Source: Bacteroidota bacterium (GTDB lineage: Bacteria > Bacteroidota > Ignavibacteria > Ignavibacteriales > Ignavibacteriaceae). Taken from it: a stretch of DNA of 64,000 bases. Shown one piece after another: positions 40,811 through 46,511 of this stretch. The stretch's first letter is position 1. Each line of letters starts with the position of its first letter. The notes beneath the pieces were generated by a model that was not told the DNA's origin, did no database searches, and was given only the letters and a program-made list of their open reading frames with translations. Where the stretch lies: assembly GCA_021831685.1 (NCBI GenBank), contig JAKBMG010000004.1, positions 1-64,000 on the forward strand, given 5' to 3'. The translations under genes were made by a program, and so were the position numbers.

Positions 40811-41047
40811 ATGATTAAGGGAACTGTAATTATCGACCGGGATATTTGTAAAGGATGTGAACTCTGTATAGTCGCATGTCCCCAAGAAAGTCTTGGATTA
40901 TCTAAGCAAATTAACATAAACGGGTACCGCTTTGCTGAACTTGTTCAGGATAATTGTACAGGTTGTGTCAATTGCGCTCTTGTTTGCCCAGATGTGGCAA
41001 TAACTGTTTACCGTCAGCCAAAATCGGCAATAAAAAATGCCGGTTAA
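40811..41047 (+). CDS. 4Fe-4S ferredoxin subunit of 2-oxoacid:acceptor oxidoreductase
   Basis: CKGCELCIVACP and CTGCVNCALVCP; heads kor-type operon. Confidence 0.88.
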   Translation: MIKGTVIIDRDICKGCELCIVACPQESLGLSKQININGYRFAELVQDNCTGCVNCALVCPDVAITVYRQPKSAIKNAG

Positions 41048-41079
41048 ATAGTAATCTATGACCTAAAAACTTTTAATGA

Positions 41080-42207
41080 TTGGTTTTACAAATGGAACAA
41101 GAAAAAATATCGAAAAACGAAGCCAGCCAAAACGGTAGGGAAGCCCGGCTTATGAAAGGTAATGAGGCATTAGCCGAAGCCGCAATAAGAGCAGGAATTG
41201 ATGCGTATTTTGGATACCCAATAACTCCTCAATCTGAAGTGCTGGAATACTTTACAAACGAAATGCCTAAACGCCACGGCGTAGTTCTCCAGGCAGAAAG
41301 CGAAGTTGCCGCAATCAATATGATTTACGGTGCTGCCGGCGCCGGCGGACGGGTTATGACATCGTCTTCAAGTCCGGGAGTAAGTCTTATGCAGGAAGGG
41401 ATTTCTTATATTGCTTCTGCTCAGTTGCCTTGCCTAATTGTTAATGTAAGCCGCGGAGGTCCCGGATTAGGCACAATCCAACCTTCTCAAGGTGATTATT
41501 TTCAGGCTGTTAAAGGCGGCGGACATGGTGATTATCATTTAGCCGTTCTCGCCCCTTCTTCTGTTCAAGAAATGGCTGATTTTGTTTTTGACGCTTTTCG
41601 CCTTGCAGAAAAATATCGAATTCCCGCTATGATATTAGCCGACGGAGCTTTAGGACAAATGATGGAAAAGGTTATACTCCCCGAAGAAGGCTCTCTTCCA
41701 AAAATGCAAAAACCCTGGGCTACTACCGGTAAACCCAATTCTCGTGAAAGAAATATTATTACTTCTCTTTTCATTGAACCTGAAAAAATGGAAATGATAA
41801 ATCTGGGACTTCAGGAAAAGTATCGCCAGATGCAATCAGAAGTCCGGTTTGAAGAATTTGCTCTTGATGATGCTGATATTGCTCTTGTGGCTTTTGGTCT
41901 TTCAGCGCGGATCTGTCAAAAAGTTGTTGACCTCGCAAGGGAAAAAGGTATTAAAGCCGGATTGTTAAGACCAATCACCCTCTACCCTTTCCCTAAAGAT
42001 ATTTTAAGCAAACTTGCCGAAAAGGTAAATTTTATGCTCGTTGTTGAAATGAATGCCGGACAAATGATTGAAGACGTAGCATTGGCGGCTAATGGAAAAT
42101 GTCCTGTCTATTTTAAAGGTAGAATGGGCGGAATGATTCCCTCGCCGGAAGAAGTTCTAAAAGAATTGGAATCTCTTGTTGAAAAACAAAGCGTAAGTCA
42201 AGATTAA
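41080..42207 (+). CDS. 2-oxoacid:acceptor oxidoreductase alpha subunit
   Basis: GNEALAEAAIRAGIDAYFGYPITPQSE, SSSPGVSLMQEGISY. Confidence 0.9.
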   Translation: MVLQMEQEKISKNEASQNGREARLMKGNEALAEAAIRAGIDAYFGYPITPQSEVLEYFTNEMPKRHGVVLQAESEVAAINMIYGAAGAGGRVMTSSSSPGVSLMQEGISYIASAQLPCLIVNVSRGGPGLGTIQPSQGDYFQAVKGGGHGDYHLAVLAPSSVQEMADFVFDAFRLAEKYRIPAMILADGALGQMMEKVILPEEGSLPKMQKPWATTGKPNSRERNIITSLFIEPEKMEMINLGLQEKYRQMQSEVRFEEFALDDADIALVAFGLSARICQKVVDLAREKGIKAGLLRPITLYPFPKDILSKLAEKVNFMLVVEMNAGQMIEDVALAANGKCPVYFKGRMGGMIPSPEEVLKELESLVEKQSVSQD

Positions 42208-42219
42208 AAGGAAAAATCT

Positions 42220-43005
42220 ATGGAAATGATAATGGAAACAGAAACAGCAACTACTTTAAATGGTTTTGAACTGGTTTACAAAAAACCTTCTACATTGACT
42301 GATACACCTTTTCATTATTGCCCCGGATGCGGACATAGTGTTGTGCATAGACTTCTGATGGAAGTAATAGAAGAATTGGGGATTCAGGAACAAACCGTTG
42401 GTGTCGCTCCTGTTGGATGCTCGGTCTTTGCCTATAATTATATGAACATCGATATGCAAGAAGCAGCTCACGGAAGAGCCAGTGCTGTAGCGACCGGGAT
42501 CAAAAGAATTTTACCTGATAAGTTTGTGTTTTCTTATCAAGGTGATGGAGACTTAGCTGCCATTGGAACAGCCGAAACGGTTCATACAGTGAATCGCGGT
42601 GAAAATATTTTAATGATTTTCATTAACAATGCAATTTACGGAATGACCGGTGGGCAAATGGCGCCAACTACTTTGCTTAAACAAGTTACGTCAACTTCTC
42701 CTTACGGAAGAAATAAAGAAGCAATGGGTTATCCGCTAAAAATAACTGAACTTCTCGCTCAACTTCCAGGCGCATACTATGTTTCAAGACAAGCCGTTTA
42801 CAATGTAAATGCTGTAAGAAAATTAAAGAAGGCAATTGAAAAATCTTTTGCCTATCAAAAATTAAATAGAGGAACAAGTTTTATTGAAGTCGTTTCAAAC
42901 TGTCCATCCGGTTGGAAGATGACACCGGTTGAAAGCAATGTATGGCTTGAAAAAAATATGTTTCCGCAATATCCTTTGGGCGATATTAAAACGCCGAAAG
43001 ATTAA
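42220..43005 (+). CDS. 2-oxoacid:acceptor oxidoreductase beta (TPP-binding) subunit
   Basis: YCPGCGHSVVHRL, SYQGDGDLAAIGTAE, NNAIYGMTGGQMAPTT. Confidence 0.93.
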   Translation: MEMIMETETATTLNGFELVYKKPSTLTDTPFHYCPGCGHSVVHRLLMEVIEELGIQEQTVGVAPVGCSVFAYNYMNIDMQEAAHGRASAVATGIKRILPDKFVFSYQGDGDLAAIGTAETVHTVNRGENILMIFINNAIYGMTGGQMAPTTLLKQVTSTSPYGRNKEAMGYPLKITELLAQLPGAYYVSRQAVYNVNAVRKLKKAIEKSFAYQKLNRGTSFIEVVSNCPSGWKMTPVESNVWLEKNMFPQYPLGDIKTPKD

Positions 43006-43038
43006 TAATCCTAATAATGTTTTGAAGGAATTCATAAA

Positions 43039-43608
43039 ATGGATAAAGCTCATGAAATAATCTTTGCAGGTTTCGGCGGTCAGGGAATCCTGTCAATGGG
43101 ACAAATTATTTCCTACTCCGCTATGATCGAAAATAAGGAAGTAAGCTGGATGCCTTCCTACGGGCCTGAAATGCGTGGCGGTACTGCAAACTGCGTTGTA
43201 ATAGTTTCTCCATCTAGAATTAGCTCCCCGATTATCTCAAGATTTGATTCCGCCATTGTTCTCAATCAGCCTTCTCTTGAAAAATTTGAACATGAAGTTA
43301 AACCTGGCGGACTTTTGATTTATGAAGAATCTACCATTATTAATCCGCCCAAAAGAAATGATTTGGAAATTTTATGTGTTCCTGCTAATGAAGAAGCGCA
43401 GAAACTCGGCAAGAAGCAGGTTGCAAATATGATTTTAGTCGGAGCTTTTCTTGCAAGGCGTCCTATAGTAAAAATTGAGACCATAATAAAAGCTTTGAAA
43501 AAAGTTTTACCTGAACGTCATCATCATTTAATTCCCCTTAATGAACAAGCTTTGATGATCGGACAAAAAATAGCAAACCAAATGGAAAAGGAAATTATTC
43601 AACTTTAA
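43039..43608 (+). CDS. 2-oxoacid:acceptor oxidoreductase gamma subunit
   Basis: IFAGFGGQGILSMGQI, SYGPEMRGGTANC. Confidence 0.92.
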   Translation: MDKAHEIIFAGFGGQGILSMGQIISYSAMIENKEVSWMPSYGPEMRGGTANCVVIVSPSRISSPIISRFDSAIVLNQPSLEKFEHEVKPGGLLIYEESTIINPPKRNDLEILCVPANEEAQKLGKKQVANMILVGAFLARRPIVKIETIIKALKKVLPERHHHLIPLNEQALMIGQKIANQMEKEIIQL

Positions 43609-43643
43609 TATGATGTCATTCATCATAGAAAAGAGAAAGAAAG

Positions 43644-43913
43644 ATGAAAATAGAAGATGTAAGATGTGTTCATGCCTGCAAAAACACCTGTGCAATGTTG
43701 AATGAATCGCTGCGTAAGGAAGCTGCAATTGTTCGTTTTTATGAAAGCATCCTGGAAGATTGTAATTTGCCTGAAGTTAGAAGCTTTGTAGAAACCACTA
43801 TTGAAGAAAGAAGAAAGAGTATATTAAAAATCATTCAAAAGCTGAATGAGATACATGCACGCTCCCAGGTTGTAGATGGAATGATTTCAAGCTTTAATAA
43901 TATTGACGGATAG
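43644..43913 (+). CDS. Small Cys-rich/helical conserved-looking protein at the end of the oxidoreductase operon
   Basis: 89-aa ORF with C-x3-C-x3-C N-terminus (CVHACKNTC) and Glu-rich helices; co-directional, 36 bp after gamma subunit. Confidence 0.6.
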   Translation: MKIEDVRCVHACKNTCAMLNESLRKEAAIVRFYESILEDCNLPEVRSFVETTIEERRKSILKIIQKLNEIHARSQVVDGMISSFNNIDG

Positions 43914-43985: not shown

Positions 43986-44058
<73 letters not shown>

Positions 44059-44065
44059 CTAAGAA

Positions 44066-44092
44066 AGCCTGATTAAAATATCAGGCTTTTTG
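44066..44092 (+). terminator. Terminator of tRNA-Met
   Basis: AGCCTGATtaaaatATCAGGCT followed by T-tract. Confidence 0.85.
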
Positions 44093-44144
44093 TTTTTTAT
44101 AAAGTCAGGACATTTTAGTTATACTACAAGTATAGTAGAATTAT

Positions 44145-44225
44145 ACGAGGGTTGTAGGTTCAATTCGCCGCGGCGAACTGCCCCCGCTACTAAGAAAGCC
44201 TGATAAAAAAATCAGGCTTTTTGTT
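44145..44225 (+). pseudogene. Truncated tRNA-Met 3'-half plus terminator, T-loop replaced by palindrome TTCGCCGCGGCGAA
   Basis: cgaGGGTTGTAGGTTCAA-[palindrome 44164-44177]-CTGCCCCCGCTACTAAGAAAGCCTGAT...ATCAGGCTTTTTG matches tRNA at 43986-44092 outside the palindrome. Confidence 0.85.
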
Positions 44226-44292
44226 TTTATAAGACTAAGATTTTAAGCTATTCTAAAAACAGACTAGACTGATAATAATTAAAAATGGTTTT

Positions 44293-44550
44293 ATGACCAT
44301 AACAAGAAAAACATATTATGCATATGTAATCCGAAGTCAAGAGGGCTATCACTATACAGGAATGACTGAAGATTTAGAAAAGAGGTTATTAGAACATAAT
44401 GAAAAAAGACTTTCTTTCTGGACTAAAAGAGGAAACAATTGGAAATTAATATATAAGGAAGAATTTGTAAATAAATCTGATGCATTAAAAAAAGAAAAGT
44501 GGTTAAAAAGTGGAGTGGGACGAGAGTATATAGAAAACCTAGTAAAATAA
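44293..44550 (+). CDS. Small standalone GIY-YIG (URI-like) nuclease domain protein
   Basis: YYAYVIRSQEGYHYTGMTEDLEKRLLEHNEK...ALKKEKWLKSGVGREYI; stop codon lies within tRNA-homologous ATAACCC. Confidence 0.88.
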   Translation: MTITRKTYYAYVIRSQEGYHYTGMTEDLEKRLLEHNEKRLSFWTKRGNNWKLIYKEEFVNKSDALKKEKWLKSGVGREYIENLVK

Positions 44551-44631
44551 CCCGAAGGTTGTAGGTTCAATCTGCCGCGGCAGACTGCCCCCGCTACAAA
44601 AAAAAGCCTGATAGAAAAATCAGGCTTTTTG
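44547..44631 (+). pseudogene. Second truncated tRNA-Met 3'-half plus terminator, T-loop replaced by palindrome TCTGCCGCGGCAGA
   Basis: ATAACCCGAAGGTTGTAGGTTCAA-[palindrome 44571-44584]-CTGCCCCCGCTAC..AGCCTGAT..ATCAGGCTTTTTG; homology begins inside the anticodon. Confidence 0.87.
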
Positions 44632-44672
44632 TTTTTTATTAGATCACGACCCCTCTATTTAGCAAACTATGC

Positions 44673-46511
44673 TCATTTAAGCAAAACTAATTTCTTAGTT
44701 GCTACAAATGATCCAGCCTTAAGACTGTAGAAATAAACTCCGCTTGCTAGATTCGATGCGTTAAATTCTACTTTATAATTCCCTGCTGGCTTCTGCCCAT
44801 CAACTAAATTCGCTACTTCTCTTCCTAAAATATCATATATTTTCAAACTGACACTGCTTCTAAAAGGTAAGCTGTAGCTAATAATAGTAGTCGGATTGAA
44901 AGGATTAGGATAATTTTGGCTTAGGTAAAAAGTTGATGGTGCGGCAGTTATATTATCCTTATTCGAAATTCCCGTCAAAAGGGAATTATTATAATCAGCG
45001 GTTAGCACTTGTCCTCTTATTTCGCCTGCGGGAAAGTTGGATGTATGCACGTTTATATATACTCCTTCCCTGAATATATCCGGTAAAATATCGTCGCTAA
45101 TATTCGCCCAGAAAGAATCAGTAGTGCTGTCAGTGTAAGAAATCGGTTCAATCACACCGCCGTTGGAATCTGAAGGAGCTAGATGGAAGTGTGCTGCCGT
45201 AAGTTTGGATGATAAACCGGCAACAGTTATTCTATAGAATAAAGTGTTGTTACTATAAAGCAGCCACGCAGTCCCCGAACCTTCAGTAGAAACTGGTGGT
45301 ACATCAAAACTTCCGCCTAAATTAGCTATAAATGTTTCTCCTTCGGTTAAATTAACTTGTCCTCTGATTTCTCCTCCGGTATGTGTTGTAGAGTGAACAT
45401 TAACATATATTCCTCCTTTTATCAGATCAGCTGCTAAAGTATCCGGAATATTTGTCCAAACGCCTGTAGCTGTATTGCCATTGAATGTAGTAATAGGCTC
45501 AACTACACCCCCGCTTACACCTGGCATACCGATATGAAAATGAGATCCAGTAAATCCGCCTGAAAGATTTGCGTATGTTATACGGTAAGCTAATGAAGTT
45601 CCATCATCTGATAACTCAAACCAGCCTGTACCTGATGCGCTTGTATTTACCGCAGGTGTCTCATTGCTGCCGTCTAAAGATGCTGTAAATGAAATTGATC
45701 CGATTCGGTTAAGTTGACTTCTTATTTCACCTCCCGGATACACTGTTGAGTGAACATTAACATATATACCTCCGGTTATTAAATCAAAAATATCCGTATT
45801 GGTCAAATTGCTCCAGGTTCCGTATGCAGAGCTATCTGTAAAGGTAATTGGTTCCGCAACTCCGCCGTTTGTTCCGCTTTGTCCAAAATGAAAATGAGCA
45901 GCAGTTAAAGTTCCCGATAATCCTGCAATAGTAATTCCGTAGGATAACGAAGCAGTTGAATTTGAATCTGTAAGAACTGCCCACCCGGTTCCTGTTGCAG
46001 TAGATGAGTCAGCTGATGTCACCCCTGAAGCGTCAAGCGACATAACGAAAGCTATTCCTTTCGCAGGTTCTAATTGCCCTCTTAATTCACCGCCTGGATA
46101 TTTGGTTGTGTGGATATTAACATAAATTTCTCCCTTAAGTAATTTGGAGAATATACTATCCGGAATATTTGACCAACTTCCACTTGCAGAATTACCATTA
46201 AATGAGTTTATACCTTCCACAACACCTCCAGATACCCCCGGCATCCCTAGGTGAAAATGTGCTGCGGTAAATGATGATGTCAAACCAGCATAGGTTATAT
46301 GGTATGACATGGTGGTCCCGTCCGGAGACAGTTCTCCAAAAAATGTTGCTGTCCCATGAGAGGTGTCGGAAGGACTTTCCTGTGCTGCATTCAAGGATGC
46401 TACAAAAACAGTTTGAGGAGCAGGGGGAGGCGGTGTCATTGCTTGAGAAAAAAGTTTTATTGTAAATACAACTATTATAGACAGAATAATTAAAGGTAAG
46501 GTCTTTTTCAT
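44673..46511 (-). CDS. Secreted protein with four CHRD domains and T9SS type A sorting domain
   Basis: Four repeats ending YVN(I/V)H(T/S)..(Y/F/H)..GE(L/I)R(G/S)Q; C-terminus NYPNPFNPTTIISYSLP...LVLLK. Confidence 0.9.
   Translation of the reverse strand: MKKTLPLIILSIIVVFTIKLFSQAMTPPPPAPQTVFVASLNAAQESPSDTSHGTATFFGELSPDGTTMSYHITYAGLTSSFTAAHFHLGMPGVSGGVVEGINSFNGNSASGSWSNIPDSIFSKLLKGEIYVNIHTTKYPGGELRGQLEPAKGIAFVMSLDASGVTSADSSTATGTGWAVLTDSNSTASLSYGITIAGLSGTLTAAHFHFGQSGTNGGVAEPITFTDSSAYGTWSNLTNTDIFDLITGGIYVNVHSTVYPGGEIRSQLNRIGSISFTASLDGSNETPAVNTSASGTGWFELSDDGTSLAYRITYANLSGGFTGSHFHIGMPGVSGGVVEPITTFNGNTATGVWTNIPDTLAADLIKGGIYVNVHSTTHTGGEIRGQVNLTEGETFIANLGGSFDVPPVSTEGSGTAWLLYSNNTLFYRITVAGLSSKLTAAHFHLAPSDSNGGVIEPISYTDSTTDSFWANISDDILPDIFREGVYINVHTSNFPAGEIRGQVLTADYNNSLLTGISNKDNITAAPSTFYLSQNYPNPFNPTTIISYSLPFRSSVSLKIYDILGREVANLVDGQKPAGNYKVEFNASNLASGVYFYSLKAGSFVATKKLVLLK

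Follow-up and report, generated by a model that had tools for sequence, protein, structure and literature searches.

How did a small nuclease gene come to lie between pieces of a tRNA gene, and is it part of a mobile element? The question is raised by the ORF at 44293..44550 (+ strand) of the window, by which the whole analysed stretch of 64,000 nucleotides is meant. A preliminary description of this DNA had proposed a minimal mobile GIY-YIG element directed to tRNA genes, which inserts at the anticodon loop and re-supplies the 3' half of the tRNA. The proposal of a mobile, tRNA-directed minimal element is strongly supported by the analyses presented below, while its target-repair role and the generality of the anticodon breakpoint are not.

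The tRNA-Met locus and its nuclease gene

The sole intact tRNA gene detected by ARAGORN in the window is an initiator tRNA-Met(CAU) (43986..44059, + strand; also matched by Rfam RF00005), the presumed target and host gene, which has the same sequence at the empty sites of related genomes. It is followed by a terminator hairpin (AAAGCCTGAT..ATCAGGCTTT and then a run of T; 44064..44096, + strand), and this hairpin is found three times, once behind each tRNA piece. The first partial tRNA copy (copy A; approximately positions 45-73; 44150..44190, + strand) belongs to a unit without an ORF and consists of exact tRNA blocks of 14 and 13 nt flanking the palindrome TTCGCCGCGGCGAA (44164..44177); the second terminator hairpin (44194..44226, + strand) is a 96% repeat of the first. 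As a terminator stands behind each tRNA piece, copy A looks like an older unit that has lost its ORF.

The 85-aa ORF runs into the second partial copy (copy B; A35 to the 3' end; 44547..44597, + strand), which comprises a 24-nt exact match and CTGCCCCCGCTAC and carries the palindrome TCTGCCGCGGCAGA (44571..44584); behind it lies the third terminator hairpin (44603..44634, + strand; ~89% repeat of the first). The 24-nt tRNA-Met block ATAACCCGAAGGTTGTAGGTTCAA recurs exactly at 44547-44570, and thus the stop codon TAA of the ORF (44548-44550) lies on tRNA-derived sequence, as had been noted before. The sequence GGTTGTAGGTTCAA is present three times in the window, against 0.01 expected from shuffles. 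The comparison also agrees with the earlier placement of the left breakpoint of tRNA homology between C34 and A35 and of the ORF between tRNA pieces, both of which are palindrome-broken 3' copies of tRNA-Met(CAU). In each of them, a perfect 14-bp palindrome takes the place of three T-loop bases; these palindromes are absent from the first description. Because the palindrome interrupts the T loop, neither copy is able to restore the tRNA, and the idea that the downstream piece re-supplies the 3' half has to be abandoned; the intact tRNA is a separate whole copy.

Upstream of the tRNA-Met gene lies an operon resembling 2-oxoacid:ferredoxin oxidoreductase (40811-43913, + strand). It ends with a gene for a conserved 89-aa protein (43644-43913) with no Pfam match, present in 63 of 80 genomes of the family, mostly just upstream of tRNA-Met. 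Convergent with the element is a gene (44673-46511, - strand) whose 612-aa product combines four CHRD domains with a Por-type secretion tail.

The assignment of the ORF to the GIY-YIG proteins was confirmed with PF01541, which matched residues 8-73 with 47.6 bits (cut-off 22.6; E 2.2e-12); there is no other domain. All 21 aligned members match the same profile, and among the 21 homologues Y11, Y21, G23, R31 and H35 are invariant and E68 is nearly so. The domain search found no DNA-binding region besides the GIY-YIG domain in the window protein or in the aligned members. Element nucleases are 77-90 aa long, and their closest solved structures by profile are UPF0213 (PDB 1zg2 and 1ywl), SLX1 and, weakly, I-TevI. 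The pooled dN/dS of ~0.08, calculated from overlapping and partly or nearly saturated pairs, shows purifying selection on the nuclease.

A group I intron or another RNA element around the ORF was rejected, as loci L001-L004 gave no credible Rfam match other than tRNA. The same applies to a group I intron endonuclease: the intact tRNA is separate and the protein scores below the TIGR01453 cut-off. No integrase gene was found, the GIY-YIG gene being the lone ORF between the tRNA pieces; palindromes are present, but the one gene of the unit is this nuclease and not a transposase.

The window protein has three paralogues in its own genome, and the same arrangement occurs there twice more, at tRNA-Pro(CGG) and tRNA-Val(TAC). 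The tRNA-Pro(CGG) paralogue starts right at the 3' end of the tRNA and is followed by a 3' tRNA-Pro copy whose anticodon arm is replaced by TCCCGATTCAATCGGGA; a 5' copy upstream of this site bears the same palindrome. The tRNA-Val(TAC) paralogue lies downstream of its tRNA, and behind it a decayed copy of tRNA-Val contains TCCCGACAAATCGGGA. No tRNA lies near the third paralogue, which is UPF0213-like.

Occurrence at tRNA genes in other genomes

All short GIY-YIG matches in 10 related genomes (48 loci) were read in their context. At 24 of these 48 loci, a tRNA or tmRNA gene on the same strand lies within 400 bp, against 0.3 expected from ~43 tRNA genes per genome (binomial P ~5e-40). Two of the loci are at tmRNA, and their nucleases form a branch of their own. 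In these two (L077 in genome G034 and L099 in genome G003), the element lies downstream of the tmRNA on the same strand, and the nuclease branch is well supported.

The first alignment (A1) was too diverse for a scan of a collection of named genomes, and a narrower one (A2), biased to relatives of the Asn, Asp, Ser and Met types, was used, giving 80 loci. A tRNA gene was found within 300 bp at 62 of them, a rate that applies to this branch and not to all GIY-YIG proteins, since the search profile was built from tRNA-associated members; the strand was shared in all 62. A second partial copy of the same tRNA lies beyond the ORF at 56 of the 65 loci with a tRNA within 400 bp, a copy being scored as positive if it exceeded all 50 shuffles of its own flank. 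The preliminary description had named a lack of tRNA 3' fragments beside homologous genes elsewhere as an observation that would speak against the element; the opposite, an enrichment, was found.

The hosts include Bacteroidota, Ignavibacteria, Neomarinimicrobiota, several Patescibacteria, Omnitrophota, Zixibacteria and a Woesearchaeon. In a second search, confined to one phylum, 124 of 198 genomes, representing 72 of 103 genera, had the type. Among the best 30 loci of this phylum-wide search, 27 are at tRNAs, all 27 on the same strand and 26 with a partial copy; two of the three remaining loci are at contig ends. The side of the tRNA on which the element lies differs among hosts, being mostly downstream in Bacteroidota and nearly always upstream in Patescibacteria, Omnitrophota and Zixibacteria (L178, L184, L202, L207, L209, L211, L212, L224 and L227). 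The anticodon breakpoint seen in the window turned out to be lineage-specific rather than a general rule: other copies begin elsewhere, and some elements lie upstream with a 5' copy.

At seven loci (L105, L084, L085, L110, L169, L176 and L216), the start codon of the nuclease is 1-8 nt past the 3' end of the tRNA, and a trailer released there may be a nearly leaderless mRNA. In the Met type, the tRNA terminator ahead of the ORF would hold expression low.

Palindromes, alleles and tandem arrays

Of the 56 partial tRNA copies, 47 have a GC-rich palindrome whose arms measure 6 bp or more; shuffles gave a mean of 4.0 and a maximum of 8, which rules out a chance origin, and the intact tRNAs have such a palindrome in 7 of 56 cases. 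The positions, assigned by hand, are discrete: the anticodon arm, positions 38-47, the T arm or the D arm. The anticodon loop, formerly taken as the insertion site, is thus merely one among several. In elements of the Pro, Gly, Lys, Val and Ala types and in some of the Met type, the palindrome takes the exact place of the whole anticodon arm (27-43); most Bacteroidota Met/fMet elements have it at 38-47. In the latter type the stems covary among hosts, with 98% of cells paired and 13 compensatory cells against 2.8 in shuffles (0 of 500 as high). The narrow Met-type palindrome pattern was found in 3 of the 198 genomes phylum-wide, and its exact form is therefore uncommon.

Most TCCCGA palindromes of genome G031 belong to pseudo-tRNA copies located next to tRNA genes; an ORF is often absent, and these ORF-less copies look like scars of past elements. 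A general genome-wide repeat unconnected with tRNA was rejected for this genome, as most of the palindromes adjoin tRNA genes. One of its loci (L087, positions 1500-1970) has six tandem 73-bp pseudo-tRNA 5' copies directly before the intact tRNA-Met, each preceded by its own upstream sequence and containing a TCCCGA..TCGGGA palindrome, whose loops vary while the stems stay paired. At a tRNA-Asp type locus (L072, positions 2343-2358), the ORF terminates at the TAG in the middle of the palindrome TCCCGACTAGTCGGGA, and therefore the reading frame runs into the tRNA-derived copy.

The discrete positions in tRNA arms, with exact replacement of the anticodon arm in several isotypes, might also suggest that mobility resides in the palindrome and that the GIY-YIG protein mobilises it, comparable to RAYT and REP: the enzyme would cut the bounding palindrome hairpins and so move or multiply the unit, and tRNA genes would be favoured on account of their inverted repeats. 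The ORF-less recurrence of palindromes, with the G031 clusters mostly in pseudo-tRNA copies, the identical palindrome at both ends of the tRNA-Pro site of the window's genome, and SLX1, a structure-specific nuclease, among the closest solved structures besides UPF0213 are consistent with it. Nevertheless, palindrome sequences vary among loci, even between the neighbouring units of the window, and no free palindrome-bounded unit devoid of tRNA sequence was seen; we consider this explanation unlikely.

The constant strand makes co-transcription with the tRNA probable, and the palindromes are hairpins with covarying stems. Both observations would also suit a toxin or defence nuclease that acts on tRNA rather than DNA, with the co-transcribed, arm-swapped copies as decoys or RNA antidotes. 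This is very improbable: to our knowledge, GIY-YIG enzymes of known substrate cut DNA, the copies often lack one side, and they decay freely to ORF-less scars, and presence among congeners is patchy. Moreover, in PADLOC the window protein had no match, and two paralogues had only weak partial ones.

Filled and empty alleles were compared at two sites. At the tRNA-Pro/yajQ locus, several genomes are empty, with the tRNA directly before yajQ, while others are filled downstream or upstream and some have only pseudo-tRNA copies. Many genomes lack an element at the tRNA-Met locus found in the window; in the sister genomes the locus is filled or the ORF is frameshifted, and a few genomes have scars. 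The alleles at both sites form a pattern of gain, decay and loss.

Exact or near-exact tandem arrays, with up to five units, are found at many of the census loci. Examples from single-contig genomes are five units of 315 bp after tRNA-Asp, five of 450 bp after tRNA-Leu and three of 317 bp before tRNA-Pro. Many of the source genomes are metagenome-assembled, which could raise the suspicion of an assembly or binning artefact; given the elements in single-contig genomes and in cultured isolates (e.g., Draconibacterium, Sunxiuqinia, Mucilaginibacter, Pedobacter and Flavobacterium), its probability is negligible.

Nuclease lineages, proposed mechanism and known systems

The tree was built from 125 GIY-YIG proteins and 87 columns, and many of its forks are weakly supported. 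On this tree, the tRNA isotype requires 38 changes against 64.6 when shuffled (0 of 200 as low), and the palindrome position 18 against 40.4 (minimum 35). Host class requires 36 changes against 41.3, hardly an improvement on the shuffled labels, and isotype on the same rows 25 against 37.2. Isotype and palindrome position are thus better reflected in the nuclease lineages than host class is. A separate branch holds 14 UPF0213-like and KNYYVYIL-type proteins, none of which is encoded at a tRNA.

These results bear on the notion that an inert UPF0213-like gene was trapped in tRNA-mediated tandem duplications, recombination alone having built the arrays and the nuclease playing no role. The arrays are indeed exact tandem repeats with tRNA homology, but the strand-biased enrichment over many genera, the purifying selection, the isotype-tracking lineages and the finding that no UPF0213-like or KNYYVYIL paralogue in these genomes lies at a tRNA make such an origin extremely improbable.

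The alleles, arrays, relics, dN/dS and isotype-tracking tree all point to a mobile selfish element. The region probably belongs to a family of minimal selfish elements that is widespread and whose members home by putative tRNA-gene cleavage and recombination. A unit comprises a GIY-YIG gene of ~80 aa and a partial copy of the adjoining tRNA gene, ~300-450 bp altogether, usually with the tRNA terminator included, one arm of the tRNA copy being broken or replaced by a short palindrome. The nuclease would cut the tRNA gene, or its hairpin or cruciform, in an element-free allele, and recombinational repair from the element-bearing copy would insert the unit. Because tRNA loss is lethal, an intact tRNA would be retained, and selection would favour repair products with one intact tRNA. 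The palindrome-altered copy would no longer be a target; the palindrome may shield it, or the nuclease may cut at the palindrome itself. The tandem arrays and pseudo-tRNA scars could arise when the intact tRNA is cut again and again and repair is misaligned. The intact tRNA-Met is identical in filled and empty congeners, so the presumed target is intact in the donor, and self-cutting must therefore be weak or tolerated. Two further points speak against homing: the two alleles must meet in one cell, and the search for a phage or plasmid vehicle gave 14 weak phage matches and one plasmid match, likewise weak, but no vehicle; and the proteins have no DNA-binding domain beyond GIY-YIG.

By analogy, the mechanism may resemble the intronless homing of SegB and other free-standing GIY-YIG endonucleases from T-even phages (PMC2988022). 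The segB gene sits in a phage tRNA cluster, cleavage by active SegB followed by recombination leads to tandem arrays of a 718-bp tRNA-Tyr and segB unit, and the gene is enriched in the vicinity of phage tRNAs of many isotypes (PMC13096335). The elements share with these endonucleases the GIY-YIG domain, a free-standing gene beside tRNAs of many isotypes and presence or absence between relatives. Occupied and empty alleles of one conserved site, as expected of Seg-type endonucleases, were found at both tRNA-Pro/yajQ and tRNA-Met. Unlike SegB, the elements are chromosomal, in Bacteroidota-group bacteria, Patescibacteria and an archaeon; they have a fixed strand, tmRNA as a second target and, in nearly every case, a partial copy of their own tRNA in which one arm holds a palindrome. 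Their proteins also differ from both SegB and I-TevI in having no separate DNA-binding domain. It is possible, though rather doubtful, that they represent a distinct class, spread across bacterial phyla and archaea, whose single-domain GIY-YIG nuclease is structure-specific, recognising tRNA- and tmRNA-gene hairpins instead of a long sequence, and which is defined by the arm-for-palindrome swap in its own tRNA copy.

Other systems share single features with the elements. Fungal mitochondrial endonuclease elements, e.g., that of Allomyces atp6, bring a replacement gene end; there too a nuclease gene stands at an essential gene along with a duplicated piece of it, but in a protein gene of an organelle and without the palindrome signature. 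Integrative elements that encode tyrosine recombinases likewise make use of tRNA genes and duplicate the tRNA end, whereas the elements described here have no integrase, are ~300-450 bp long and carry a palindrome-broken copy. REP/RAYT palindromes, Rickettsia palindromic elements and yeast mitochondrial GC clusters are short GC-rich mobile palindromes, often in stem-loops; the palindromes of the elements are likewise short and GC-rich, but there is no RAYT-type gene in the unit, and they are located in tRNA-derived copies beside a GIY-YIG gene.

In the open-licence literature on GIY-YIG proteins with tRNA genes, palindromes, Bacteroidetes, CPR and UPF0213, the arrangement was not found described, and the family is apparently large and undescribed. 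An element of ~300-450 bp with one gene of ~80 aa, whose relatives occur both in distant phyla and in 72 of the 103 genera sampled within one phylum, thus appears to be unrecognised so far. It offers a natural model of a selfish nuclease that targets essential genes while the host survives, and it is a source of pseudo-tRNAs and tandem repeats that trouble annotation. Should one GIY-YIG domain suffice to recognise the structure of tRNA genes, it would be a structure-directed nuclease of very small size.

Regarding the closest solved structures, SLX1 differs in being a larger DNA-repair enzyme. UPF0213 proteins are the best solved relatives and have the same single-domain size, yet the UPF0213-like paralogues of the same genomes branch off apart in the tree and lie away from tRNA genes. 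At six loci (L064, L070, L073, L092, L109 and L112), UPF0213-like or KNYYVYIL genes are located in intergenic repeat arrays (e.g., GTCATCCTGAA..TTCAGGATCTG or GTCATCTCGAGCGGAGTCGAGAGATG) and not at tRNAs, and some of the genes in such arrays are also tandemly duplicated.
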